Shown here: positions 24,390 through 36,522 of the stretch, one piece after another | Position numbering within the stretch: position 1 is the first letter of the stretch | How the letters are laid out: the number at the start of each line of letters is the position of its first letter | Origin: Bernardetia sp. | GTDB taxonomy: Bacteria > Bacteroidota > Bacteroidia > Cytophagales > Bernardetiaceae | Assembly (NCBI RefSeq): GCF_020630935.1 | Contig: NZ_JAHDIG010000050.1 | Location: 1-36,522, forward strand | Reading direction: 5' to 3' | DNA length: 36,522 nucleotides | The notes under the pieces: model-generated | What the model was told of the DNA's origin: nothing | Databases searched by the model: none | What the model saw: only the letters and a program-made list of their open reading frames with translations | Translations under genes and position numbers: made by a program

Positions 24390-24833
24390 TTAAAGTGGCA
24401 AAACTCTTATGGTTTGTTTGAGAATAGCTGTTCTATCTACTCTGATTTTTTGCCCTTGTTCAAAAGTATTATAATCTTTCTCTAGTACAGTAATTCTTGT
24501 CTCTCTGATAAATAAATAATAAGTTGCACCTTCATTATAAACTACTTCTTTATGGTCTATATAACCTATAATTACCCACTTATAGCCTATAAGAATTTCT
24601 ACTTTGATAATAATAAATATTATAATCAATACAACACCTACCAAAACTAACATACCTAAGTCTAGCCAGTACCATCTATGATAATGGTCAAAATAATTCT
24701 CTCTGAAATAATAAATATAACTCCCACAAAGCATCAAGATTATCAGAATAATGGATAAGAGAGGTAAGCTAAACAGTTTTCTTCCTTTCTTCAATATTGC
24801 CTTATCCTCTTTTGTCAGTTTTTCTTTTTTCAT
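24390..24833 (-). CDS. Small membrane protein, tandem paralog B
   Basis: A 147-residue protein with two TM helices (about 23-46 and 57-79) and a C-terminal soluble domain of about 65 residues. It is a paralog of the gene directly upstream: both start MKKE.LT.ED..IL, share Y-K-W-V-(L/I)-I-G, a T/S-x-Y-(Y/W) block, the E-x-DY block, then GQ(R/K)I(R/K)V and I(R)V/I...L at the C-terminus. The start overlaps the previous stop by 4 bp (24830-24833, ATGA), so translation is coupled. Function unknown; the soluble tail may be an SH3/OB-like beta barrel (inference). Confidence 0.7.
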   Translation of the reverse strand: MKKEKLTKEDKAILKKGRKLFSLPLLSIILIILMLCGSYIYYFRENYFDHYHRWYWLDLGMLVLVGVVLIIIFIIIKVEILIGYKWVIIGYIDHKEVVYNEGATYYLFIRETRITVLEKDYNTFEQGQKIRVDRTAILKQTIRVLPL

Positions 24834-25258
24834 AACGCTGTAATTCTGATGATACGTTTTGATAGTGCTGTTTGCTCCACTTTTATTCTCTGTCCTACTT
24901 TATACTTTTTATAATCTTCTTCTGAAATGATAACAGTTTCATCATTTATTTTGAAAAACCAGTACTTACTTTCTGTATCAGCATATTTATCTTTCTCTTT
25001 AATTTTACCAATCAGAACCCATTTATAATGCTGCCATTCTTCTAGTGAGTAATATATCCAGCCAAATAATTTAACAATACCAACAAATGATAATAAAAGA
25101 ACGCTTTCAAACGTGTATTTTTCATCTGCAAAATATTCTTGATATATCCACCAACAAATACTACCTAGCACCAAAACAGATAAATATGTAGAAAACATTT
25201 TTTTGCTTCTACCTCTCAATATTTTTCTATCTTCTAATGTTAGATATTCTTTTTTCAT
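24830..25258 (-). CDS. Small membrane protein, tandem paralog A
   Basis: A 142-residue protein with two TM helices (about 21-43 and 53-72) and a C-terminal domain with HYKWVLIGKIKEKDKY, SKYWFFKINDETVIISEEDY and YKVGQRIKVEQTALSKRIIRI. Its N-terminus (MKKEYLTLEDRKILRGRSKK) aligns with that of the downstream paralog. It overlaps both neighbours by 4 bp (25255-25258 and 24830-24833). I do not recognise a family. Confidence 0.7.
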   Translation of the reverse strand: MKKEYLTLEDRKILRGRSKKMFSTYLSVLVLGSICWWIYQEYFADEKYTFESVLLLSFVGIVKLFGWIYYSLEEWQHYKWVLIGKIKEKDKYADTESKYWFFKINDETVIISEEDYKKYKVGQRIKVEQTALSKRIIRITAL

Positions 25259-25632
25259 TCAGAATGAAAATTCATTTTCTTAGTTTTCATATTCAACAAA
25301 ACTGTATCTTTTCTACCTGTTCCAACTATAAAAATACATTGAAAAATGCTGTCATTAAGCCTATTTTGATAGCCTTTTGTGTAATAAGGACGAGTATTTA
25401 AGAAACTATGTTGTATTTCATTTCCACCATTATCTATTTCAAATAACTGAACAGAACTATTGGTAGTAGCATTTCCATTCACGGAAACAATAATATAACT
25501 CTGAGTTTTATAAGATAAGTCAAACAATTTGATTTTCTGAGATTCATCAAATAGAGAGAACGAAGCAAGAAAATATATTGCTCCAAAAAACAATAGGATA
25601 CAAGCAAAAAGTACCCAACTAAATATTTTCAT
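25255..25632 (-). CDS. Small anchored protein, first gene of the three-gene unit
   Basis: A 125-residue protein with an N-terminal TM/signal-anchor (about 5-27, WVLFACILLFFGAIYFLASF) and a beta-rich extracytoplasmic part (SYIIVSVNGNATTNSS, QHSFLNTRPYYTKGYQN, CIFIVGTGRKDTVLLNM). It is the first of three genes joined by ATGA overlaps and is not a paralog of the other two. The family is unknown. Confidence 0.65.
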   Translation of the reverse strand: MKIFSWVLFACILLFFGAIYFLASFSLFDESQKIKLFDLSYKTQSYIIVSVNGNATTNSSVQLFEIDNGGNEIQHSFLNTRPYYTKGYQNRLNDSIFQCIFIVGTGRKDTVLLNMKTKKMNFHSE

Positions 25633-25697
25633 TGACTTTATAGTTTTATGTAACCATCAACGAGCTTGAAAGCGTTGTTGAGGAAAAAAGTAATCTT

Positions 25698-27020
25698 CTA
25701 AATCCTATTCCTAACTTCTTTCCAAATCGTTGGTAGCCACCCCACCACAGGAACATACATCAACAACACTTCTGGATTTTCTGTAACCAACTCAACGGTT
25801 TCTTGCAAAACGTCAAGTACATCTTTTTCTTCTTCTAGCTGTTCTTCTAGTTCGCTGGTTTGGGCAATTTCTTGAGCTTGAATTACTTTCTGCTCTAATG
25901 AGGGAGGAATATTTGAAAAATTATTTAGCTCAAAAAGGCGTTTGTTGAACTGTTTTTCGTGGTCTATGAAGCGAAATGCCCACGTAAAAGGTAAGTATTC
26001 TGGTAATTTTTTCCACTTCCAAAGTGCTGTTAGAAAAAACTCTTTCCAGTTGTACGGACTTTCTCCATATTGCTCTACAGCTTCGTTGAGTTCTCGCTGC
26101 ATAATGGCGTGAATGGCATCACGAAGTGCATAAATTTCTTCTTCGGTAGCGTCTTCTACTGGTTTTCCTAAGATTTTGTACGGCTTGATACGTCTGCCAC
26201 GAACAAAAATAAGTTTTGCAGGTAGCGCAAAATAAAACATCCACGGCTGCAAGGGAATCAAAACGGTCATAAAACCAACAGGCAAAAACGGAATTCCTAG
26301 TTTTTGCACTAAATTATCTAAAAACTCTATGCTATAACTAAACGGATTGATGTACTCTGCATTGACGGTAGCAAACGGAATAATATCAGCTTTGTGTTTC
26401 AAACTCATTCGCAGCGTTGAAGTAGAAAGACGTTGGAGTTCATATTTTTTATCAAATCCTTTTCCAATTCCTCCCACACCTTCTGGGTAAATCAAAACAT
26501 TAAAAATGCCTTGTTCCATCATTGTTTCAAAGTTGAGAGAAGTCGCATCTACTCCACCTGCTTTTTTCCAAAAGTTTTCGATGGCAAACGGACTCATCAG
26601 ATTGCTTTGAGAGAGCATTGGCGCAGTCAGTGGGCGAGCTACTTTGCTCATATCGTAGTTGTGGAGCTTCAAAAGCATCGATGAAAAAATAATAGCGTCC
26701 CAAGGAAAAGCCATTCCAGAGTGGTTACTAGCAAAAATCAGAGGCGCATCGTTTTTTCTGTCTGGATAATCTTCTCCCTCAAAACCTACAAATTCAGTTC
26801 TAAAATAATATTTGCTGAGTGGTTCTAAAATTCGTTTTATCAAACTAGCTGCATAGCGTGGGTCAAAAGGAGCATTTATTTTGATACCATTGGCTTCAAT
26901 AATTTTTTTATGGGTTTCTAATTTTTGAGCTAGAGTTTGAGCTTGTCTGTTGATGTGGTCAGACGAAATTCCTGTAACCGTAATATTATCAGAAGGCTTT
27001 TGATATTCCATGATATGCAA
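25698..27020 (-). CDS. PlsC-like lipid acyltransferase with variant motif
   Basis: A 440-residue protein with an acyltransferase domain of the glycerolipid (PlsC-type) family at about 65-290. Motif I is N99-HSGMAFPWD108; here His and Asp are separated by seven residues rather than the usual four. The second motif IYPEGVGG is at 177-184. Hydrophobic patches around 230-275 suggest membrane association. The C-terminal 150 residues are helical and acidic (EEQLEEEKDVLDVLQET). It probably transfers an acyl chain to a glycerol- or lysophospholipid-like acceptor at the inner membrane; the exact step is unknown. The first codons (MHIMEYQ) offer two starts; the second is 9 bp downstream. Confidence 0.8.
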   Translation of the reverse strand: MHIMEYQKPSDNITVTGISSDHINRQAQTLAQKLETHKKIIEANGIKINAPFDPRYAASLIKRILEPLSKYYFRTEFVGFEGEDYPDRKNDAPLIFASNHSGMAFPWDAIIFSSMLLKLHNYDMSKVARPLTAPMLSQSNLMSPFAIENFWKKAGGVDATSLNFETMMEQGIFNVLIYPEGVGGIGKGFDKKYELQRLSTSTLRMSLKHKADIIPFATVNAEYINPFSYSIEFLDNLVQKLGIPFLPVGFMTVLIPLQPWMFYFALPAKLIFVRGRRIKPYKILGKPVEDATEEEIYALRDAIHAIMQRELNEAVEQYGESPYNWKEFFLTALWKWKKLPEYLPFTWAFRFIDHEKQFNKRLFELNNFSNIPPSLEQKVIQAQEIAQTSELEEQLEEEKDVLDVLQETVELVTENPEVLLMYVPVVGWLPTIWKEVRNRI

Positions 27021-27124
27021 GTAGTTTTGATTTCTTTTTAAAGACAGAAAAACTATATTTGATTACAAAATACGTAAAAATTTAGGTTCTTTTGAATTAT
27101 ATTCTAATATATTTTACCCTTAGC

Positions 27125-27622
27125 TTAATAAATAGTTACAAGAATATTCACTCCTTTATTTTCATTATAAAAATTTGACAGCCTGTAAAACTCCTTCTTT
27201 ACTTCTTCAAATACGAACTCTTCCTCTTCTAGGCTTACGCCTACGTTTGGGTAAATGTCTTTTTCAGAGAGGTCTTTGATTCTAAAACTATCTCTGTAGA
27301 TGTCAAAATCTATATTTTTTACTTTTTCTACTATCTCTGCTACGTCTTCTTGTGGAGAGAAAGAAATATACTCATCTTCATACAATATAGGAGAAACTCC
27401 TACAACAAACTCACTAAGTTTGTTATCTTCTATCGGTTCAGACGCTGAATTTCCTGTCAAGATAAAATGAAGAATATCCCACATTTTATCAATATCAATT
27501 CTAGTACAGTCTCCTTTCTTTTGTATTTTCTCCACTTCTTTTAATAGTTTCTGATCTAATAACTTCTCTAATTCTGTTACTTCTTTGTCATCTAAGGCAA
27601 TATAAACAGCTCTGATTCCCAT
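27125..27622 (-). CDS. DUF1877 (YfbM-like) protein
   Basis: A 165-residue cytosolic protein of the DUF1877/YfbM family. It begins MGIRAVYIALDDKEVTELEK, contains RIDIDKMWDILHFILTGNSA (the 'DIDKaWhgIHfLLTG' signature) and ends with VKKEFYRLSNFYNENKGVNILVTI. The family has a known fold but no clear function, and is scattered in bacteria next to unrelated genes, including toxin or effector loci. Here it lies between the acyltransferase and DUF58 genes; 40 bp separates it from the DUF58 stop. Confidence 0.88.
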   Translation of the reverse strand: MGIRAVYIALDDKEVTELEKLLDQKLLKEVEKIQKKGDCTRIDIDKMWDILHFILTGNSASEPIEDNKLSEFVVGVSPILYEDEYISFSPQEDVAEIVEKVKNIDFDIYRDSFRIKDLSEKDIYPNVGVSLEEEEFVFEEVKKEFYRLSNFYNENKGVNILVTIY

Positions 27623-27662
27623 GTTTTTTAGTGTGAATTTAATTTAATGTTTGTTTACTTCC

Positions 27663-28583
27663 CTACTTCATCTTAGCTCGTTTTATTAGATAAGGTAACA
27701 AAATTCTATCCATCGGCTGACGAATATCTACTTCTACAAAATCGATTTTATATTGTCCACTTTTTAATTTTAAAGCCTGTTCTTTGGCTTTAGTCTGCTG
27801 ACGATAATATTCTCTGACTTGTGCTGGTTGGAGCTTTATTTTTTCTCCTGTTTCTACATCTGTAAAAATATATGGACGGTCTTCAAAATCAAATTCAGTT
27901 TCTGTTTTGGAATCTTTTACATGAAAAAGTAGAACCTCGTGATGGCGATGTTTTAAGTGTTGAAGAGCTGCAAAAAGCTCATCCGTTTCGTTCATATTGT
28001 CTAGCATATCACTAAAAATAATCACTAACGAACGTTTGTGTAACCTTTCTGCTATCTCGTGCAAAACTTTAGCTGTGGAAGTTTTCTTTCCAGTAGGAGC
28101 AGGAGCATTTAAAAGACGTTGAAACTCTAAAAAAAGTGTATGAATATGCTTTGAAGTTGCTTTTATGGGAGTTTGAAGTTCTAGCTCATCAGAAAATGTT
28201 GTTGCACCAATCGCATCACGCTGTTTTTGAAGCATATAAGCAATCGAAGCAGCAGCCATAATAGAAAAGGTAATCTTTCCATTCTCAAATTTTCCTTCTC
28301 GTGGGTAGTACATAGAAGGCGAAACATCTATCAAAAGTTGCGCTCTAAGGTTAGTTTCTTCTTCATAACGTTTTACAAAAAGTTTGTCTGTTCGTGCATA
28401 GACTTTCCAATCGATATGACGTGTACTTTCGCCTGTGTTGTAGAGGCGATGTTCGGCAAACTCTACTGAAAAACCGTGATAAGGCGACTTATGAAGTCCA
28501 GAAATAAATCCTTCTACCACTTGGCGAGCCAAAAATTCTATATTGCCAAATTGGCGAATAGCTTGTATGTCTAATTCTTGCAT
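27663..28583 (-). CDS. DUF58 (VWA-like) protein
   Basis: A 306-residue soluble protein of the DUF58 family. Marks are EFLARQVVEGFISGLHKSPY, the block STRHIDWKVYARTDKLFVKR, then VWA-like LLIDVSPSMYYP (a DxSxS metal site) and LVIIFSDMLDN. DUF58 genes usually lie beside a MoxR AAA+ ATPase and encode partners of MoxR/VWA chaperone systems; no moxR is adjacent here. It may be expressed from its own promoter, since a terminator at 28712-28750 lies between it and the reverse transcriptase gene upstream. Confidence 0.92.
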   Translation of the reverse strand: MQELDIQAIRQFGNIEFLARQVVEGFISGLHKSPYHGFSVEFAEHRLYNTGESTRHIDWKVYARTDKLFVKRYEEETNLRAQLLIDVSPSMYYPREGKFENGKITFSIMAAASIAYMLQKQRDAIGATTFSDELELQTPIKATSKHIHTLFLEFQRLLNAPAPTGKKTSTAKVLHEIAERLHKRSLVIIFSDMLDNMNETDELFAALQHLKHRHHEVLLFHVKDSKTETEFDFEDRPYIFTDVETGEKIKLQPAQVREYYRQQTKAKEQALKLKSGQYKIDFVEVDIRQPMDRILLPYLIKRAKMK

Positions 28584-28610
28584 ATTTTTTTCTTTATTTA
28601 CTGCTGTTCT

Positions 28611-28630
28611 GAATAAGGCAAGCCTTATTC
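28611..28630. repeat. 9-bp near-perfect palindrome
   Basis: GAATAAGGC and GCCTTATTC (28611-28619, 28622-28630) are separated by two bases, just upstream of the DUF58 gene. The role is unknown; an operator or repeat element is possible. Confidence 0.45.
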
Positions 28631-28711
28631 CTACATTTTATCAAAAATACAAATAACTGTGTAACTTTACCTGACAAGCAATTCCTAAAAAAGCTCAAAT
28701 TCTATTCAAAA

Positions 28712-28750
28712 CAAAACAGGTTAGAAAATCTATTTTTCCGACCTGTTTTG
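28712..28750 (-). terminator. Terminator downstream of the reverse transcriptase gene
   Basis: CAAAACAGGT (28712-28721) and ACCTGTTTTG (28741-28750) form a 10-bp stem, with a further GAAAA/TTTTC pairing inside. On the minus strand TTTTG follows. It is placed 20 bp past the RT stop. Confidence 0.75.
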
Positions 28751-28769
28751 CTGTATCTCTGAAATATAT

Positions 28770-31109
28770 TTATTCAGTCTCTTGATGTAGCCTGTTAAAA
28801 ATAGTTTCTAAAGGTACGAGTTCTGTCATCAGAAAACGGAACGTTCCGAAACTATCCAAAAGTTGATAACCATAAGTATATAAAAGCCATTGCCAATAAA
28901 TTCCTAAACCATTTTGTTTTTTTCCACTTACTTCTGTTCCTCTGTCAATAAAATCGTTCATTAGTCCTTGCATTACAGGTGTAGATTTTGGAGCTAGTGG
29001 CTGAAGTTGTTGGTTTCTATATGTTACAAATATTTCTCTTAGTGTTGAGTCTTTTTGATACTCATCTAAGCCTTCAAAACTTTTCTTTGCTGGCTCTACA
29101 AATTGTTTTTGCCTTTGAGCAATAGACACAATATGACAAAATGGATTTTGAAGTGCAAAACCTCCTGCTGTAAGCGACCAATAATACCAAGCCTCTGGCA
29201 ATTTTTCTATGGCTTGTTTCATGGTTGGTATTTTCTCTACCAAAAGATTTTGTAATGCTTGAAGGACTGTCGTATTATCTTTAAAAAGCTGTTTTTCAAA
29301 AAGAACAACTGCCTTACTAATTTCCTCAAGGTGCTGATTTCCCAAAGGATAACCAATTCCAAAACTTTTGAGTAAGAAAGAAATATGTGTGTTATAGACG
29401 TTACAAAACTCAAAAATAGAACCTGTATTTTCTAATTTTTCAGAAAGTATTTGAGCAAAATTTGAAACTGCACTTTGATTAATTTTCCAGTTTCCATCTT
29501 GATGTAGAGAAAGAAACATCCAGTTGGGAAGTGTTATTTCTGTTTGGAGTTCTTTATTTATTTTTTCTATAAAACTATCTTTTTCCTTAGATTCTCCTAT
29601 TCTGACAATGCCTATTTTTTCTTTGTTGAGTTCTAAACCTGTCATTTTATAGAAATCTGTCAGAGTTTGCCAAGCATTTTGAGCATCCTTTTCCGAATCA
29701 CAGAAAATATACATATCGTCCATATAACGAAACGTAGCAATACCTTTTTGTGTCCAAAATGCTTTGTCTAAAAGAAGTAAAAGCGTGTCTGCAAGCATAG
29801 AGGAAAGCAAGTGAGAAAGTGAAATTCCTCTTTTTGCAGAATATATTTCATCTTTATATGAATAAGGAACTTCCAAATACGTTTTGAAAAAATTTAACCA
29901 CTTCTGACTAATTCCTACTTCTTCTAAAACAACGAGCAACGTCTGATGAGGAAGTGTTAGGAAATAATTTTTGAGGTCAGTTTGAATAATATATGGAGTA
30001 GTAACCTCTTTTAAATCATTACGTCTTGCTTCTGTTATTTTTAGCTGTGCATTTAGTCCTTGAAAGAGTTTGAAATAGGTATCTTCATTACTCACTATAC
30101 TGACTATATCGCCATCATATCCATTATAAGAATCTTGAAAAGTGATTTGAGAAAAATCAATATGATTAGGAAATTCTTTAAAGGTAATTTCATTTCGAAG
30201 AAGTTTATGCCAGTATTTTAGATGGTTGTATTCGGGTTCTTTTCCCCAAAAATCTTTATCTAACATGCTTTCTCTGAAAGCACGACCAAAACGCATTCCT
30301 ATTATTTCCAACAACAAAGATTCTAAAAGTTGTGTAGATAAATAGGGTCTCCATTTGTGCTTTGTCCAAAGTGCATTGAGCTTAACACCCTGTCCTGCCC
30401 ACGTCCACGTTTCGAAATTATTGAGCAGAACAGTAATTGTTCCAGCCAGTTCATTGACTAACGATTCTTTTCCTACGATAGCAGAAATTTCTGACTTTAG
30501 TTTCGTGTGATGATACGGATGCGCTTTCATATAACGAAGAATATAAGCTGTTTCTTCTTTACTCACAGGCTGCAAGATAGTTTCATCTAAAAATTTCTGA
30601 TGTCTTTCCCTAACTTTTTCTACATCGTGAGTATGAACTCTTATCCATTCTCTCAATTTCGTTTCATTTTCAAGCTGATGGATTTGCTTGCTTATAAGTT
30701 GTAAAAAACCAATTTCAAAGTCTATTTTTTTCTTATTGGTAGAGTTTTGCGTATTCCAAGTATCTTCTAAAGCTCGTCCGAAAACCAAACCTGCTTCTAG
30801 TCGTAATTTTCCTTGTTCAATTTCATTTTGAAGGCGACTTATCCAACTTTCCAATAAAGAAATAGAAACCGTATTATTTTCTAACTGTGTTTGCAAAACG
30901 GTTAGGTTTTCAACATCTGGATGAAGCTGTTTTTGAGCAAAAGTAATCTTACAAAGACCTTGATAAAGAAGTTGAAATTTTTCTTCTATCTTAGAAGTTT
31001 TCTCAACTTGCCTAATAATTGTATTGTACTGTTTATGAAGCTCATGATATTGGCGATTTAGCTCGTCTAATTTAATACGAGTTACTTGTTTGGAGGTGAG
31101 AGTTTGCAT
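28770..31109 (-). CDS. Reverse transcriptase of unassigned lineage, with long N- and C-terminal extensions
   Basis: A 779-residue RNA-directed DNA polymerase. Residues 1-370 are helical, with a coiled-coil-rich start (DELNRQYHELHKQYNTIIRQ) and no known domain. The RT core spans about 250-510: a region of fingers motifs, motif A with D378 (IIQTDLKNYF), motif B-like RGISLSHLLSSMLAD (427-441), motif C YMDD (462-465, D464/D465), and motif D GLELNKEKIGIV. So all three metal-binding Asp are intact. Residues 510-779 form a helical region with no thumb/maturase, HNH or endonuclease motif. It is unlike group II intron RTs (no X/DNA-binding/En domains), and I see no msr-msd RNA, no TR/VR pair and no Cas gene nearby. 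It may belong to the 'unknown group'/DRT or Abi-like RTs used in phage defence (inference). It is a single gene with its own terminator. Confidence 0.9.
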   Translation of the reverse strand: MQTLTSKQVTRIKLDELNRQYHELHKQYNTIIRQVEKTSKIEEKFQLLYQGLCKITFAQKQLHPDVENLTVLQTQLENNTVSISLLESWISRLQNEIEQGKLRLEAGLVFGRALEDTWNTQNSTNKKKIDFEIGFLQLISKQIHQLENETKLREWIRVHTHDVEKVRERHQKFLDETILQPVSKEETAYILRYMKAHPYHHTKLKSEISAIVGKESLVNELAGTITVLLNNFETWTWAGQGVKLNALWTKHKWRPYLSTQLLESLLLEIIGMRFGRAFRESMLDKDFWGKEPEYNHLKYWHKLLRNEITFKEFPNHIDFSQITFQDSYNGYDGDIVSIVSNEDTYFKLFQGLNAQLKITEARRNDLKEVTTPYIIQTDLKNYFLTLPHQTLLVVLEEVGISQKWLNFFKTYLEVPYSYKDEIYSAKRGISLSHLLSSMLADTLLLLLDKAFWTQKGIATFRYMDDMYIFCDSEKDAQNAWQTLTDFYKMTGLELNKEKIGIVRIGESKEKDSFIEKINKELQTEITLPNWMFLSLHQDGNWKINQSAVSNFAQILSEKLENTGSIFEFCNVYNTHISFLLKSFGIGYPLGNQHLEEISKAVVLFEKQLFKDNTTVLQALQNLLVEKIPTMKQAIEKLPEAWYYWSLTAGGFALQNPFCHIVSIAQRQKQFVEPAKKSFEGLDEYQKDSTLREIFVTYRNQQLQPLAPKSTPVMQGLMNDFIDRGTEVSGKKQNGLGIYWQWLLYTYGYQLLDSFGTFRFLMTELVPLETIFNRLHQETE

Positions 31110-31149
31110 AGATAAATGTGGGTTGAAATTTCGTTTTAATTATCTATTA

Positions 31150-31157
31150 CAAATATA
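31150..31157 (-). promoter_or_regulatory. -7 element of the reverse transcriptase promoter
   Basis: Minus-strand TATATTTG matches TAnnTTTG, 41 bp before the RT start codon. It overlaps the divergent element at 31156-31163 by two bases. Confidence 0.5.
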
Positions 31158-31163
31158 ATTTTG
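31156..31163 (+). promoter_or_regulatory. -7 element of the glycosyltransferase promoter
   Basis: Plus-strand TAATTTTG matches TAnnTTTG, 53 bp before the ATG at 31217. The divergent RT element overlaps it. Confidence 0.45.
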
Positions 31164-31216
31164 CAGACCTCAACAGATGTGAGAAGTGATTTTTTATCGA
31201 TATAAAACCCAAAATA

Positions 31217-32416
31217 ATGACAGCATTTAGAAACGATAAAACAGAAAATGTAGAGAATAAAAAAATTGCTATTCTTTCTGTTTTGAAACCTGTCGATGAT
31301 GTTCGTGCTTACAAAAAAATAGCAAAGTCTGTCGTAGGAAATCATAAAAAGATTACACTCATAGGTTTTGAAGCAAGTAGTTTTTCAAAAAAAAACAATA
31401 CAGAAAAAAATATTGAATTTATAGAATTATTCAGCCAAATAAATCATGGAAATAGACTGGGATTATGGCGTTTTTTTGCTGGCTTTAGAGTCTTATATCA
31501 GCTTTTGAAAATCAAACCTCATACAATTATCGTTTGTGCCGTCGAACTCCTACCATTTACTTTGCTTTACAAATTTTTCTTCAAAACAAAACTCATTTAT
31601 GACATGCAGGAAAATTATGTTTTCAATATTCTCTATCAAGAAAATTATCCTCGTTTTTTAAAGAAGCCACTGGCTTTTTTGATTAGAAATTTTGAAAAAT
31701 TCTCATCTCGTTTTATTGATTTGTATTTGTTAGCAGAGCGATGTTATTTGGAAGAAATACCTTTTTTGAAAAAACAGAACTACATTTTTTTAGAAAATAA
31801 ATTTTTGATAGAAGATGATTCTGATTTTGAAAGAAACTCAATCGTTCCATCTGACTTTCTAACTACAAAAAACATCAAATTTTTACTTTATGGCTCATTT
31901 TCAAAAACCTATGGAACAGTAGAAGGCATTTTATTTTTCAAGAAACTGCAAAAAGAATTCTTTAAAAAAGGCATTCAAATTCAGCTTGTTTTGGCTGGGT
32001 ATTGCTCAGATAAAAACTACTCTAAAAAGATTACGGAACTGATAAAAAATGAACCTTCTATTTCTTTGCTGAATAATTCTGTTTCAACTCCTATTTCTCA
32101 TAAAATTCTACTTGAAAAAATTCAAAAAACGGATTTTGTTATTTTACCTTATTTATTCAATCGAAGCACACAAAACTGTATTCCAACAAAGTTTTATGAA
32201 TGTTTAGCTTACCAAAAACCAATGCTTTTTTCTAAAAATGAAAAGTGGAAATTTTTTTTAGAACCTTTACATGCTGGATTTTCAGTTGATTTTGAGAGTC
32301 AAAATTTAGAAAATGAAGCTAAAATTGTAGTGAAAAAAATTATAGCTCAACAATTTTACTCAAAGCCTATTGATGAGAGTATTTGGAGGTTTGATAGAAG
32401 TAGTTTGAGTGTATGA
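31217..32416 (+). CDS. Glycosyltransferase, GT4-like
   Basis: A 399-residue GT-B-type glycosyltransferase. The N-terminal domain starts KIAILSVLKPVDDVRAYKKI, a pattern seen in surface-polysaccharide glycosyltransferases of Bacteroidota, and holds IIVCAVELLPFTLLYKFFFK and KLIYDMQENYVFNI. The C-terminal domain has KFLLYGSFSKTYGTVEGILF (donor-loop glycine), VLAGYCSDKNYS and the nucleotide-sugar pocket region VILPYLFNRSTQNCIPTKFYECLAYQKPML, in which the usual acidic residue is Glu of YECL. There is no TM segment, so it is cytosolic or peripheral. Donor and acceptor are unknown. No polysaccharide cluster surrounds it, which is unusual. A 3' remnant of a paralog lies at 35559-35629. Confidence 0.85.
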   Translation: MTAFRNDKTENVENKKIAILSVLKPVDDVRAYKKIAKSVVGNHKKITLIGFEASSFSKKNNTEKNIEFIELFSQINHGNRLGLWRFFAGFRVLYQLLKIKPHTIIVCAVELLPFTLLYKFFFKTKLIYDMQENYVFNILYQENYPRFLKKPLAFLIRNFEKFSSRFIDLYLLAERCYLEEIPFLKKQNYIFLENKFLIEDDSDFERNSIVPSDFLTTKNIKFLLYGSFSKTYGTVEGILFFKKLQKEFFKKGIQIQLVLAGYCSDKNYSKKITELIKNEPSISLLNNSVSTPISHKILLEKIQKTDFVILPYLFNRSTQNCIPTKFYECLAYQKPMLFSKNEKWKFFLEPLHAGFSVDFESQNLENEAKIVVKKIIAQQFYSKPIDESIWRFDRSSLSV

Positions 32417-32575
32417 GGTAAATGAGTACTTTATTTTTAAATACAAAACCATATTATTTTTATAATTTGATTAGAACTTCTTAGATTGTGTTTTATTTTT
32501 AATCGCACCTTCGTTTACTTACTCTTTTGGAGCAACAAACAAAATTCAAAATAAATGAATTTCATTTATATAGAT

Positions 32576-32587
32576 GTTATATACAAG
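32576..32587 (+). other. Possible attC-like core preceding the esterase gene
   Basis: GTTATATACAAG matches 10 of 12 bases of GTTATGTACAGG, the complement of the outer end of the attC-like element downstream of the same gene. If real, it would mark the cassette's left boundary. Confidence 0.25.
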
Positions 32588-32617
32588 TCAAACAAAACAA
32601 CATAGAAACATTAATTA

Positions 32618-34222
32618 ATGAACAAACCTTATTATCTAACTCTTCTTACATCGCTTTTATTTATTTCAATTTTCACTTTTCCAATTTCAGCTCAAAATAA
32701 TAATGCAACAGCTCTTATTGCTGGAGAAAAGATTGACAAGACTATTTCTGCATTAGACAAACATACTTATACTGTTGAATTAGAAAACGGAATGGCAGTA
32801 ATTGGAGAAGTTCTTCAAAAAGAAATAGACCTTGTAATTGATGTATATAGACCCAATGGAAAACTTCTAAAACAAATTGATAGTCCAAACGGAACAAATG
32901 GAGTTGAACCTATTGATATCACCTCAGATGAATCGGGAGAATATAAATTGATAGTTCATACTCTAGATAAAAACGTAAAAAAAGGAATGTACACTTTGAC
33001 TATTAAAAAAATATTAAGTTTATCAGACAATACAAAGCGTATTACAAAAAAAGAACTTCCAACGAAGACGTTATACAACTTATGGGAATCTTCGCTAACT
33101 GATGAAAATGCGATAAATTCTTTCATTGCCAAGAAAACAGACAGACATATTATTGAACCGATTGAAGGAAATGATAAAGATATGTTGGTCACATACTTTT
33201 GCATACCTAACGATAATACTGAGTATGTAATGTTAAGTGGTGGTCCTGATTTTTTGGGTTTACGTTTTCAGCGATTACCAAACACAAAACTTCATTTTGT
33301 AACGCAGAGAGTTCCTAAAGATGCTCGTTTCAACTATGGATTCAATTATTTCAATCTAGATAAAGCAGGTCCAAATGAAGAAATCGAAATCAGAAATGTA
33401 GAGCATGCTTATGATGGAACTGTTGAGATGCCAAATGCACCTAAGCAAATCTACATTGGTGAAAGAGAAAATGTAGATAAAGGAAAAGTATTACCAACTT
33501 CAATTAAAAGTAAAATTTTAAATGAAGAAAGAAAAATCACAATACATACACCAGCAAATTACAATCCAAAACTAAAACATAATTTAGTAATAATATTTGA
33601 TGGAGAATCCTATGGAGCAATACCAAATCGTAGGTCAAGAATACCTGCGCCAACCATAATCGATAATCTAATATCAGATAAAGAAATTCCACCTACTGTC
33701 ACGGTTTTAGTATGGTCAATGGGTAAACGTAATAAAGATTTGATAAGCGAACAATTTGGAGATTTTATTGCAACTGAACTTATTCCTTGGATGCGTTCAA
33801 AATATACTATTCATACTACATCAGATAAAGTAATTTTAGCAGGTTCAAGCCGAGGAGGTTTTGCAGCTAGTTTCATTGCATTAAATCATTCTGATGTCAT
33901 AGGCAATGTTCTTTCACAATCTGGTTCATATTGGATTAAAGGTACAAATAACGAAAACCATTGGATTTATCCTGAAGATAATGGTAAACTCATTAATGCA
34001 TATATGGACAGTGAAAGATTACCCATAAAATTCTATATGGACATCGGACTATATGATGCAGGAGCTTCTATGCTCGGAATGAATAGACAGTTTCGAGATA
34101 TTCTTAAAGCAAAAGGATATAATGTGAATTATCAAGAGTTTAAAGGTGGGCACAATTATGTAAATTGGCGTGGAACTCTTTCTAATGGATTAATATCTTT
34201 GATTGGATTAAAAACAAAATAA
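32618..34222 (+). CDS. Secreted esterase, Fes/enterochelin-esterase-like
   Basis: A 534-residue exported protein with a signal peptide ending near PISAQ (25). A first domain at about 32-130 is PPC-like (bacterial pre-peptidase C-terminal type): GMAVIGEVLQKEIDLVIDVY and GEYKLIVHTL. The second segment at about 180-275 resembles the N-terminal domain of Fes-type esterases (YVMLSGGPDFLGLRFQR). The alpha/beta-hydrolase catalytic domain follows at about 290-534: FDGESYG, nucleophile elbow GSSRGG (409-414, Ser411), candidate Asp480 in GLYDAG and His512 in KGGHNY. It resembles siderophore (enterobactin) esterases and their carbohydrate esterase kin, but the substrate is not known. It is followed closely (8 bp) by the attC-like element, and may be a mobile cassette gene. 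Confidence 0.88.
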   Translation: MNKPYYLTLLTSLLFISIFTFPISAQNNNATALIAGEKIDKTISALDKHTYTVELENGMAVIGEVLQKEIDLVIDVYRPNGKLLKQIDSPNGTNGVEPIDITSDESGEYKLIVHTLDKNVKKGMYTLTIKKILSLSDNTKRITKKELPTKTLYNLWESSLTDENAINSFIAKKTDRHIIEPIEGNDKDMLVTYFCIPNDNTEYVMLSGGPDFLGLRFQRLPNTKLHFVTQRVPKDARFNYGFNYFNLDKAGPNEEIEIRNVEHAYDGTVEMPNAPKQIYIGERENVDKGKVLPTSIKSKILNEERKITIHTPANYNPKLKHNLVIIFDGESYGAIPNRRSRIPAPTIIDNLISDKEIPPTVTVLVWSMGKRNKDLISEQFGDFIATELIPWMRSKYTIHTTSDKVILAGSSRGGFAASFIALNHSDVIGNVLSQSGSYWIKGTNNENHWIYPEDNGKLINAYMDSERLPIKFYMDIGLYDAGASMLGMNRQFRDILKAKGYNVNYQEFKGGHNYVNWRGTLSNGLISLIGLKTK

Positions 34223-34230
34223 AGACCTGT

Positions 34231-34363
34231 ACATAACAATGGCTATAAGTAATTGCTCTAGTTGGTTAAAACAAGGAGCGTTTATTACATTTATTCTACT
34301 CCGTTAAATCGGAAGAACAGAACAAACAAAATCGCAACTACTCATAGCCGAGACCGTTCATGT
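34231..34363. repeat. attC-like imperfect inverted repeat after the esterase gene
   Basis: Arms GGCTATAAGTAATTGC (34241-34256) and GCAACTACTCATAGCC (34334-34349) pair at 14 of 16 positions, and both mismatches are A/C on the top strand but T-G wobble on the bottom strand. Outer 7-8 bp ends ACATAAC (34231-34237) and GTTCATGT (34356-34363) are nearly complementary, ending in AAC/GTT. Between outer and inner stems are unequal spacers AAT and GAGACC. A variable 77-nt loop lies inside. This is the architecture of integron attC sites, and length (133 bp) and position just after a stop codon fit too. No integrase is in the window. Confidence 0.5.
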
Positions 34364-34428
34364 CCAGTACTCTAAAATACATTACGTTTATACAAATATT
34401 GGCAAGCATTAGAATGAAAACTCACTTA

Positions 34429-34483
34429 TTAAGTAATTATCTACTACAATTTTGTTAAATTTGATTTATTTTTTTATAAAACA
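34429..34483 (+). repeat. 55-bp direct repeat, copy 1 (insertion-sequence end)
   Basis: It matches 36468-36522 at 54 of 55 bases (T/C difference at 34475 versus 36514). It starts TTAAGTAATTATCTACTAC. It lies just upstream of the transposase-like fragment at 34499, so it is probably the terminal end plus leader of an insertion sequence. Confidence 0.8.
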
Positions 34484-34498
34484 CAATTTATCAATGTT

Positions 34499-34717
34499 AT
34501 GCGTTTCATAGCTTCTTTAAATGCTTTTCAAACCCAAGAACTTCGTCGTTATTTATCTAGTACAGATGTTAAGCTCTTACCAAGAGAACGCAAACGTTTT
34601 AGTGCTATTTATTTAAGTTCTTTTCATAAATTGACTATACAGGAACTTAATTATATCAGTACTGATAATTGGACTTTTAGGATCTTGCGACAAACCCCTA
34701 AGGGAATTTCAACTTGA
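34499..34717 (+). pseudogene. Truncated transposase N-terminus (IS630-like, tentative)
   Basis: A 72-codon frame starting just after the 55-bp repeat. The first part (MRFIASLNAFQTQELRRYL, then LLPRERKRFSAIYLSSFHKL) resembles the helix-turn-helix start of IS630-type transposases. After about 50 residues (TIQEL) the frame departs from the pattern and the reading frame of the next gene begins, so the transposase is cut off near 34640 by fusion to unrelated DNA. Family assignment is by pattern only. Confidence 0.45.
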
Positions 34718-35480
34718 CAATGATATTCAACATAAGACATTGAAACTGTTTACTGACTCTACATTTATTGAAGAAATTACAGAAATCGAAGACTCATATC
34801 AGTATTTGGGTACTTGGACAGGTTCACTTAAAGAAGGCGATACCTTCAAAACAATTACAACAAAAAAGGGAAGTCAAATATTGAACCTAACACCAAAACA
34901 TAAATACCGAATAGTAAATGGGCAACCTCTTGAAATAGAAACCTTGAGAGAAAGTCAAAAAAGTGTAAGTTTCCAATCAATATCCTCAAACTATTCAGAA
35001 GAATTTCAAAACCATTTACAGGAGAGCAACCTAATCCTTAAAGCTGATACAATACTTTTTCCAGACTCTTCGATTGTGCTTATTCCTAAATACATCACAA
35101 ATGACCAAGAGGTAATATTTAAATCAGAAAGTGGAAACTTAATTACCATCCAACAAATAAACTATACTGACATAGAATTTGAAATTCAATATCATGACCA
35201 GAACTACAAAGGAAAGGCTTCCTTATCTCCATATTTCTATTTAGGAATGGAAACTGTTGGATTCTCAGAGGGAGAATATGTTATCACTCATTATTACGTA
35301 ACTGAAACTAACAACTCTTGCCTTGACTTTATTGGTCTTGGAAATCAAAATATTGCTAAAGAAAATTCTGAAAATGTTTATGCCTTAGTTTCTGTATCAG
35401 ATGATACTTGTAAAGATGAACTAAACGAACTGACTAATAAAAAATTAAATACGATTACCAAAAAAACCTATAAGCAATAG
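34641..35480 (+). pseudogene. 5'-truncated lipoprotein gene
   Basis: The frame ending at 35480 is open well upstream of the first candidate start (TTG at 34740). Reading back it gives RNLIISVLIIGLLGSCDKPLR: a hydrophobic signal followed by lipobox LLGSC (Cys codon 34686-34688) and then 263 residues of mature protein. No ATG, GTG or TTG lies between the upstream stop at 34632 and the Cys codon, so the native start seems to have been replaced by the insertion-sequence remnant. The mature sequence has KLFTDSTFIEEITEIEDSYQ and YLGTWTGSLKEGDTFKT near its start, resembling small Bacteroidota lipoproteins that begin with a LTLFSDNTF-type strand, but I assign no family. It is probably not translated from its own signal. 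Confidence 0.6.
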
Positions 35481-35558
35481 CACCATGTGAGAAACTACTG
35501 CACACAGCCAAAACGTCAATAGTAAGTAATAGTATTGTGACACTGACAGACAAGATAA

Positions 35559-35629
35559 AATTTTATATACAGCCTATTGATGAGAGTATTTGGAAGTTTG
35601 ATAGAAATATAACCAACGAAATGATTTGA
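35559..35629 (+). pseudogene. 3' remnant of a glycosyltransferase gene paralog
   Basis: The segment 35571-35606 matches 32364-32399 (3' end of the intact glycosyltransferase) at 35 of 36 bases. Translated, it reads FYIQPIDESIWKFDRN, then ITNEMI and a stop, against FYSKPIDESIWRFDRS in the intact gene. Similarity fades just upstream of 35559. It is therefore a fragment left by duplication and deletion, lying between two unrelated lipoprotein genes. The rest of the 35481-35793 gap holds the D element and a terminator. Confidence 0.75.
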
Positions 35630-35686
35630 ATTTTGTATCTTCTAAACTTCAAGTCATACAAACTATCTTCTTTAATCTTCGTCAAC

Positions 35687-35709
35687 GACCTAAGTAGGAA
35701 AGATTAAGG
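35687..35709. repeat. GACCTAAG-type intergenic element (D)
   Basis: GACCTAAGTAGGAAAGATTAAGG; it shares 11 bases with B at 20973. It is flanked by TTAATCTT (35672-35679) and AAGATTAA (35700-35707), an 8-bp inverted repeat whose right arm lies inside the element. Confidence 0.5.
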
Positions 35710-35741
35710 CAATTTCCAAATACAGGAAATTACCTTTTTTT
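35706..35741 (+). terminator. Hairpin terminator in the rearranged zone
   Basis: AAGGCAATTTCC (35706-35717) pairs with GGAAATTACCTT (35725-35736) at 11 of 12 positions, followed by seven T (35735-35741). It would end plus-strand transcription from the truncated lipoprotein gene or from the lost glycosyltransferase copy. Confidence 0.75.
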
Positions 35742-35793
35742 GATTCCAAAAAATATTTATCTGTTTTATACCTAGCAAGTTTGGGACTGCCCA

Positions 35794-36470
35794 TTATTGA
35801 TAAATAAAACTTACAATTTTTCCATTTTCCCAAGTAATTTCGCTATTAGATGGAAAAAGTCCTTCTGTGTTGGTAAGATACTTTTTTCCATTAGGAAAAA
35901 CATACTTTATAGTCATATTTTCTGTGAGTGGGCTCATAACCATTGACCCATCTTTCGTCTGTGCAATATCAAGAACTTTTCCTTCTACATAAGGTTCTAG
36001 TGGAGTAAGTAAGTTTACAGATTTTTCATACTTACTCACTAACTCTTTCATTTCTGGAATAATTTCTCTATCATTTTCAATACCTAGATTTGTTTTGCTT
36101 ACTTGATATACATCACTAGAAGGTGTAGTAATATAGAATTCAATGTCTTGCTTTTCGTCTATTAAAAAATAAGCATCATTAAACCCTTCTCCTAAATCAT
36201 GAGAAAAATCTAGTCCTAGTCGCATATCATCAACTCTCTTCAAGTCTTCACCATTCGACTTTGCTTTAATAAAAACCATTTCATTATCTGGATTGGATAA
36301 TTCGAAATAAACGTATTTCTTACCTTCTGGAGCTAAAATACTTACCTTCTGCTCGTCATTGGAGAGAAGAGTAGTAGCTTTTATTTTTTCTATTTTAAGT
36401 TTTTTTCCATCTACATCAAACTCTTTTCCTAGCTCTATATTGACTGGTTCACTAGAACTACAACTTGTTA
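35794..36470 (-). pseudogene. Lipoprotein gene with signal peptide broken by an insertion sequence
   Basis: The minus-strand frame ending at 35794 extends upstream past the first internal ATG (36279). In frame it reads LTSCSSSEPV with the lipobox Cys codon at 36460-36462. Upstream of the TTA codon (36469-36471) the sequence becomes the 55-bp repeat, whose in-frame TAA (36505-36507) separates the lipobox from the only upstream ATG. So the signal peptide is lost and no start remains in frame. The mature protein (about 223 residues) has IELGKEFDVDGKKLKIEKIK and KKYVYFELSNPDNEMVF, a pattern like DUF4352-type lipoproteins, though this is tentative. It seems recently inactivated, since the rest of the frame is intact. 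Confidence 0.65.
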
Positions 36471-36522
36471 AGTAATTATCTACTACAATTTTGTTAAATT
36501 TGATTTATTTTTTCATAAAACA
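36468..36522 (+). repeat. 55-bp direct repeat, copy 2, running off the window
   Basis: It is the same sequence as 34429-34483 in the same orientation, beginning in the signal-peptide codons of the broken lipoprotein gene. The rest of the presumed insertion sequence would lie beyond the right edge. Confidence 0.75.

Follow-up and report, generated by a model that had tools for sequence, protein, structure and literature searches.

The stretch of DNA analysed here, referred to as the window, comprises 36,522 nucleotides and is contig C50 of the 4.75 Mb draft genome of a Bernardetia sp. (Cytophagales). A gene for a reverse transcriptase (RT) is situated on its minus strand, and the features of the locus are summarized in Table 1. 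The protein contains a single RVT_1 (Pfam) domain, whose score of 60.1 bits exceeds the cut-off of 29.6. Asp378 of motif A as well as Asp464 and Asp465 of the catalytic motif are invariant in all five members found of UG37, the group to which the protein is assigned below; the catalytic motif reads YMDD in three members, and the two distant members have QLDD or LLDD. None of the five members carries an internal stop. The dN/dS ratio (NG86) is 0.10 between the relatives in two genomes of the same genus, G003 and G004, and 0.16 between the window and either of them, the synonymous divergence being close to saturation in the latter comparison. The 779-residue RT is real, intact and under purifying selection. 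A preliminary description, made from the letters alone, had placed an intact motif A and YMDD at these residues, correctly, and had called the enzyme likely active; judged from the intact core, it is probably active. The long non-catalytic ends that were described on either side of the core are also borne out, and a low-confidence model gives the part ahead of the core a mostly helical fold. The terminator that had been proposed after the gene agrees with an inverted repeat followed by a T-rich run; the inverted-repeat scan, with a loop limit of 8, omits this hairpin.

Table 1. Coordinates of the features at the RT locus of the window.
Feature	Position	Strand	Remarks
UG37-type reverse transcriptase	28770..31109 including stop	(-)	779 aa, ATG start, no internal stop
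RT catalytic core, approximately residues 346-520, with D378 and YMDD (D464, D465)	29550..30074	(-)	Pfam and family alignment
N-terminal conserved module, residues 1-120, UG37-specific, mostly helical (low-confidence model)	30750..31109	(-)	81% identity to G003
C-terminal tail, residues 701-779, most conserved stretch	28773..29009	(-)	Invariant Tyr 738, 744, 746
Conserved noncoding 5' block, promoter-like	31127..31207	(-)	Local alignment between RT-positive genomes
21-nt core of the 5' block	31163-31183		TAnnTTTG-type box at 31150-31157
Terminator-like hairpin, CAAAACAGGT...ACCTGTTTTG then T-rich run	28712..28750	(-)	Inverted repeat, 10 pairs, after stop, by eye
Divergent neighbour, weakly glycosyltransferase-like	31217..32416	(+)	18.5 bits against a cut-off of 400; marks the site

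Among the PADLOC models, RT_UG37 (PDLC03776) matches the window protein at 485 bits (E 9.1e-146), and the runner-up, RT_UG19, at 75 bits (E 1.8e-21), 124 orders of magnitude behind. The alignment covers positions 2-273 and 362-774 of the RT_UG37 profile (685 of 778) and leaves 274-361 unaligned; the G003 protein aligns to profile positions 1-775. Taken separately, the N-terminal piece (residues 1-345) matches PDLC03776 at 162 bits and the C-terminal piece (510-779) at 220 bits, with no other PADLOC family at E ≤ 10 for either. UG37 is likewise the sole DRT model matched by the N- and C-terminal pieces of three members, namely the window and the two distant ones; the C-terminal piece of the distant member G450 has two extra PADLOC matches, both to non-RT models (E 0.006 and 0.012). 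The rule of group membership in myRT asks for a second match at least 1e5-fold worse than the best (PMC8934634); the values of the window protein, 9.1e-146 and 1.8e-21, lie further apart than this, on the models of PADLOC rather than those of myRT itself. Because the profile match spans both ends and the core, and the next model is far behind, the RT almost certainly belongs to UG37. It shares the N-terminal, core and C-terminal parts of that group, and nothing excludes membership. The preliminary description had seen no recognisable class and a possible new branch; a class is recognised at 485 bits, and an RT that falls in an already named group is therefore no new branch. The general kind suggested at the time, UG/Abi-DRT, was correct, UG37 being filed by PADLOC under DRT. 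A known DRT class had been named as the outcome that would speak against the description, and it was found in name; no experimental study or mechanism of UG37 was found in the literature searched, which was open-licence, most subscription journals lying outside it.

Comparison with other RT classes agrees with the earlier statement that intron, retron and CRISPR contexts are absent. The group II intron model TIGR04416 gives 76.3 bits against a cut-off of 300, with no Rfam match around the gene, and NF038233, which represents one retron family, gives 24.7 bits against 235. NCBIfam models of group II, Drt3a/4/5 and retron-St85 match the RT core, far under their cut-offs. Since, to our knowledge, most msr-msd RNAs are absent from Rfam, a retron RNA was judged absent from the lack of conserved structured flanks. 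As to a CRISPR-associated RT, Pfam detects no Cas1 domain, a weak Cas1_IIIb match is confined to the RT core (residues 363-503), and the 10 neighbouring ORFs have no PADLOC match. A scan of 25000-36522 for repeats of the type found with diversity-generating RTs (DGR) gave direct repeats of 25-29 nt with 72-82% identity touching the RT gene, the best two pairs lying elsewhere, at 32352/35559 and 34424/36463. Within UG/Abi, Class 1 enzymes possess an alphaRep helical-repeat domain after the RT and perform template-free, protein-primed synthesis, Class 2 enzymes (DRT2, DRT9, DRT10) have a cis-encoded structured ncRNA beside the gene, and in Class 3 enzymes the RT is fused to a nitrilase or phosphohydrolase domain. 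Pfam at E ≤ 0.1 finds neither of these two domains in the window protein, its matches being RVT_1 and two sub-threshold ones, EAD9 and Arfaptin. Class 3 is thus disfavoured, and Classes 1 and 2 remain.

The tree of RT cores that had been advised contains 28 rows, five of UG37 and 23 hand-chosen out of 31 RT loci (L016, L019, L020, L022, L025, L029, L030 and L033 were left out); its labels GII, retron and x were assigned by us, and the PADLOC scan covered 10 of the 23 non-UG37 rows. UG37 forms one clade with support 100/100, and is joined to a UG21-like row, L036, at 94/99, a join that long branches make unsure; no mechanistic class could be fixed from the tree. The L036 enzyme, a UG21/UG32-type RT from a Vampirovibrionales MAG, has the same RYMDDMYIF motif and 31% identity over window residues 377-503. 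It differs in being encoded by a 539-aa ORF, a 361-aa piece of which scores 188 bits with UG21 and 176 bits with UG32. The ORF (L036:7458-9077, plus strand) is located beside tyrosine-recombinase-like pieces and UmuC/UmuD-like genes, named by eye, and is a possible unrecorded defence locus. The genome of the window also encodes a second RT of 528 aa, unrelated to UG37, on contig C124 (L001:1117-2703, minus strand), which has a retron-like RYADD motif and adjoins a WGR-like protein, both names given by eye.

The five UG37 members are those of the window, G003, G004, G450 and G557. G003 and G004 belong to the genus of the window (71-72% identity to its RT), and G450 and G557 (31-33%) come from a different family within the order. 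Among named relatives, the closest is that in the Bernardetia MAG JAHDBD010000027.1 at 71% identity, the same match as G003. Counting the window's own genome, carriers make up 3 of 7 genomes in the genus and 5 of 390 in the order, and 2 of 15 in the distant family. The UG37 profile found the window's own genome alone among 295 genomes of the class, 296 of the phylum and 285 order genomes of at least 99% completeness, sets that overlap in part; outside Bacteroidota it was run on 14 control genomes alone, none of which matched. A protein search of 395 phylum genomes gave a match in 65, and among the matches listed all except the window's own concern the RT core only. A tblastn search with the RT gave nothing in 72,556 plasmid and 50,697 phage records, and IMG/VR scans gave no confirmed UG37 copy; the contig scan with a single protein query reaches only close relatives. 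UG37 is a rare, already named and apparently uncharacterised group.

The UG37 RT is a one-gene locus. All 7 genomes of the genus have the glycosyltransferase-like gene. In the four RT-negative sister genomes, it stands side by side with a small gene (CsaA-like, by eye) in the same direction, with one small ORF between the two in G001. In G003 and G004, the RT alone separates the same two genes and is read from the opposite strand; the gaps to its neighbours measure 180-181 nt at the 3' end and 143-148 nt at the 5' end. The window retains the glycosyltransferase side of this arrangement, and a DUF58 gene lies on the other side at 186 nt from the RT; in G450 and G557 the RT neighbours differ, by eye. 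No conserved partner gene was found across the member loci compared, and no PADLOC model matches the 10 neighbouring ORFs of the window at E ≤ 0.001. The RT had been described as solitary, which is borne out, and its neighbours as giving no clue.

Several other observations concern the surroundings of the gene. The gene order around the glycosyltransferase-like gene in the window differs from that of the sister genomes. The 3' end of that gene is repeated 3.2 kb downstream (32352-32402 and 35559-35609, 51 nt, 88%), perhaps as a remnant of a duplication or rearrangement. The second copy of a 60-nt repeat (34424-34483 and 36463-36522, 97% identical) coincides with the last letters of the contig, and the assembly likely broke off at this repeat. 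Two adjacent minus-strand ORFs, 24390-24833 and 24830-25258, are paralogues by BLASTP grouping.

Between the window and its sisters, the RT (71-72% identity) and the glycosyltransferase-like gene (69%) have diverged about equally, which fits slow vertical inheritance no less than a defence gene. In the tree of the glycosyltransferase-like gene (seven rows, midpoint root), the window is outermost and the RT-positive genomes do not form one clade, although a single clade is not rejected (p-AU 0.118). Such a pattern would suit ancestral presence followed by losses. Together with the similar divergence and the lack of PADLOC matches among the neighbours, it speaks for an alternative in which the RT has been domesticated for a host function outside phage defence, such as DNA repair, and some of Bernardetia and its relatives have retained it by vertical descent. 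Against this reading stand the patchy presence in genus, order and distant family given above and the filing of the group by PADLOC under DRT, the latter a label rather than a test. We consider domestication quite unlikely.

The noncoding block directly 5' of the RT is strongly conserved. Its local alignment between RT-positive genomes scores 74, against 19.3 ± 3.2 for dinucleotide shuffles (0 of 500 reach 74), and it is far more conserved than four-fold degenerate sites, which are 52% identical. The 21-nt core, with up to 2 mismatches, is present once in each of the three RT-positive genomes and in none of the four RT-negative ones. A TAnnTTTG-type box, as found in promoters of Bacteroidota, stands next to it, and a regulated promoter is the simplest reading of the block. 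The block was also considered as a peptide, the end of a 69-aa ORF, and this was rejected, the frame stopping earlier in a sister genome (by eye). Folding of the 5' flanks is not beyond chance when compared with shuffles (z of -0.73, -0.59 and -1.01). The 3' flanks of the window and the sister genomes are unrelated (137/500 and 242/500 shuffles do as well). Rfam models match nowhere in the window when gathering scores are applied, and the section 28300-31500 gives no match even at E ≤ 1. Because the 3' flanks are unrelated and the 5' flanks fold like shuffles, no cis ncRNA is apparent. The search for conserved neighbours and ncRNA that had been recommended thus yielded the 5' block, and neither a partner gene, conserved 3' sequence nor an Rfam match. 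An imperfect palindromic repeat of the CAGACTTCCTAGTCTG type was seen by eye just 3' of the sister-genome RTs (L046:4190-4370 and L047:7921-8100).

The same flanks bear on the alternative that UG37 acts like the Class 2 DRTs, binding a cis-encoded ncRNA that lies in the 5' block (31127-31207) or overlaps the gene, and copying it into repetitive DNA. The strong conservation of this noncoding block, some 80 nt directly 5' of the gene and with a core found only with the RT, is in line with such an RNA. The block, however, has a promoter-like box, is placed in the 107-148 nt between divergent genes and folds like chance; it has no Rfam match and is undetectable in the two distant members, where 53/500 and 103/500 shuffles do as well. 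The structure models speak on both sides. With the partial model, DRT9 entries account for four of the five best matches (Z 8.4-9.2) and are level with R2 and group II RTs, whereas the full-length model is led by LINE-1 and R2, with the best DRT9 at rank 32 (Z 12.6), both models being weak. On balance an RNA-templated enzyme of this sort is rather unlikely.

Conservation is higher at the two ends of the protein, residues 1-120 and 701-779, than in the catalytic core. Identity between the window and G003 amounts to 91% (72/79) in 701-779 and 81% in 1-120, compared to 69% in the core (346-520) and 59% in 521-700. With three of the five rows being close relatives, invariant columns number 23/40 in 721-760, 17/40 in 81-120, and 9/40 in 441-480 around the catalytic DD. 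Tyr738, Tyr744 and Tyr746 are invariant in the tail, and nine more tyrosines are invariant elsewhere. A profile of residues 635-779 finds the same five genomes only, among 271 searched. The AlphaFold model of the full-length protein has a mean pLDDT of 58.4 and a pTM of 0.50, and residues 215-779 modelled alone are worse, with a mean pLDDT of 50.8 (5 sequences in each case). The last 80 residues are at pLDDT 30-35; the C-terminus is helical in this weak model, whose confidence is too low to identify an alphaRep fold. In Foldseek and VIA-align, the matches include LINE-1, R2, group II, DRT9, DRT4 and Abi RTs, whose scores are tied or weak, and AbiK is not among the structural matches listed, at most 50 per search, which excludes nothing. 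Because the models are weak and the scores are tied, no mechanistic class is drawn from the structure; folding the protein and searching by structure, as had been advised, gave similarities of the RT core and, at mean pLDDT of 58 and 51, no class.

The N-terminal helices could alternatively represent an EAD9-like effector-associated domain coupling the RT to a separate conflict system elsewhere. For the window N-terminal piece, EAD9 ranks first in Pfam (residues 8-48, E 0.008), and it ranks second at the same place in the 33%-identical G557 protein (E 0.011); the RT N-terminus is the best EAD9-like site in 3 of 5 carrier genomes. These matches stay below the curated cut-off of PF19962, which is 25 bits, the window protein scoring 14.9 to 20.1 bits; moreover, the G450 N-terminal piece lacks an EAD9 match, and 11 of 14 control genomes show weak ones. 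The EAD idea predicts a second EAD copy in the genome (PMC7159879), yet no carrier genome has a match over the cut-off. With scores below the cut-off, no second copy above it and weak matches in control genomes, the EAD9 identity of the N-terminus was not adopted, and a coupling of this kind is very improbable.

Comparison with DRT enzymes provides a glimpse of how UG37 may work. The Class 1 Abi/DRT RTs (AbiK, AbiA, AbiP2 and DRT4/UG15) have a long helical C-terminal part after the RT, as in the UG37 model, whereas the UG15 match to UG37 concerns the core only. DRT9 (structures 9vma, 9ioa and 9nlx) resembles the window protein in the RT core, and both possess conserved tyrosines in a C-terminal tail; in contrast to UG37, for which none is apparent, DRT9 has a cis ncRNA. 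The window protein scores 38.8 bits with the Drt9 model, and its structural match is weak (Z 9.2, rmsd 8.5, 249 residues). DRT1 of Class 3 is a large multidomain RT, reported to perform protein-primed and template-free synthesis, and UG37 is proposed to act likewise; the nitrilase/phosphohydrolase feature of the class is what sets DRT1 apart from the window protein. Protein priming has been reported in DRT9, where the primers are two conserved tyrosines on a tail that lies C-terminally and close to the active site (PMC12483538), in DRT10 on a serine (PMC12632851), in DRT1 on a serine and template-free (PMC13275509), and in DRT3b on a tyrosine (PMC13174585).

We propose that the UG37 RT, encoded by a single gene, is an anti-phage DNA polymerase belonging with the UG/Abi enzymes (DRT), and that its synthesis is probably protein-primed without a cis RNA template; we would call the chances of this account even. 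Phage infection would release or activate DNA synthesis by the RT, and the primer would be a hydroxyl of the RT protein itself. Because DRT9 primes on conserved C-terminal tyrosines and other DRTs are also protein-primed, priming from the tail is proposed, the best candidate site being the conserved C-terminal tail (Tyr738, Tyr744 or Tyr746). The choice of residue is a guess, given the tail pLDDT, the nine other invariant tyrosines and the many roles that a tail may have. The DNA product would probably be made without a cis-encoded RNA template, or the coding sequence itself may conceal the template. Oligomerisation, sensing and/or toxicity may come from the N- and C-terminal parts specific to UG37, which would thereby replace a separate effector gene.

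The components of this proposal differ in strength. That the group is anti-phage, which we take from the PADLOC filing and from the DRT groups studied, seems fairly probable; the library behind the DRT label is restricted to defence systems, and the label does not test function. Protein priming that dispenses with a cis RNA is our best guess, held tentatively and at slightly less than even chances. The proposal as a whole is supported by the UG37 match, the Asp and Asp-Asp kept in five members, the dN/dS of 0.10-0.16 and the presence or absence of the gene as one unit; it is weakened by the lack of PADLOC matches in the 10 neighbouring ORFs and of any phage, plasmid or viral-contig copy found. 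A still bolder version, in which UG37 is a self-contained defence enzyme with a new mechanism that combines sensing, priming on a C-terminal tyrosine and its own toxic or adaptor EAD-like N-terminus, with neither RNA template nor partner, is decidedly improbable.

The DNA products reported for the DRT groups studied so far are varied and odd, among them poly-dA, dinucleotide repeats, semirandom DNA and genes created de novo out of repeats. UG37 adds to these a rare and intact one-gene group, for which no study was found in the open-licence literature searched. Comparison with the sister genomes indicates that a test construct of about 2.7 kb, consisting of the gene and short flanks, suffices. 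The terminal modules outdo the active site in conservation, and thus indicate the seat of the group-specific function and the residues to mutate. The window RT offers a good and compact object for tests within a named but uncharacterised group; it is a useful lead rather than a new branch.
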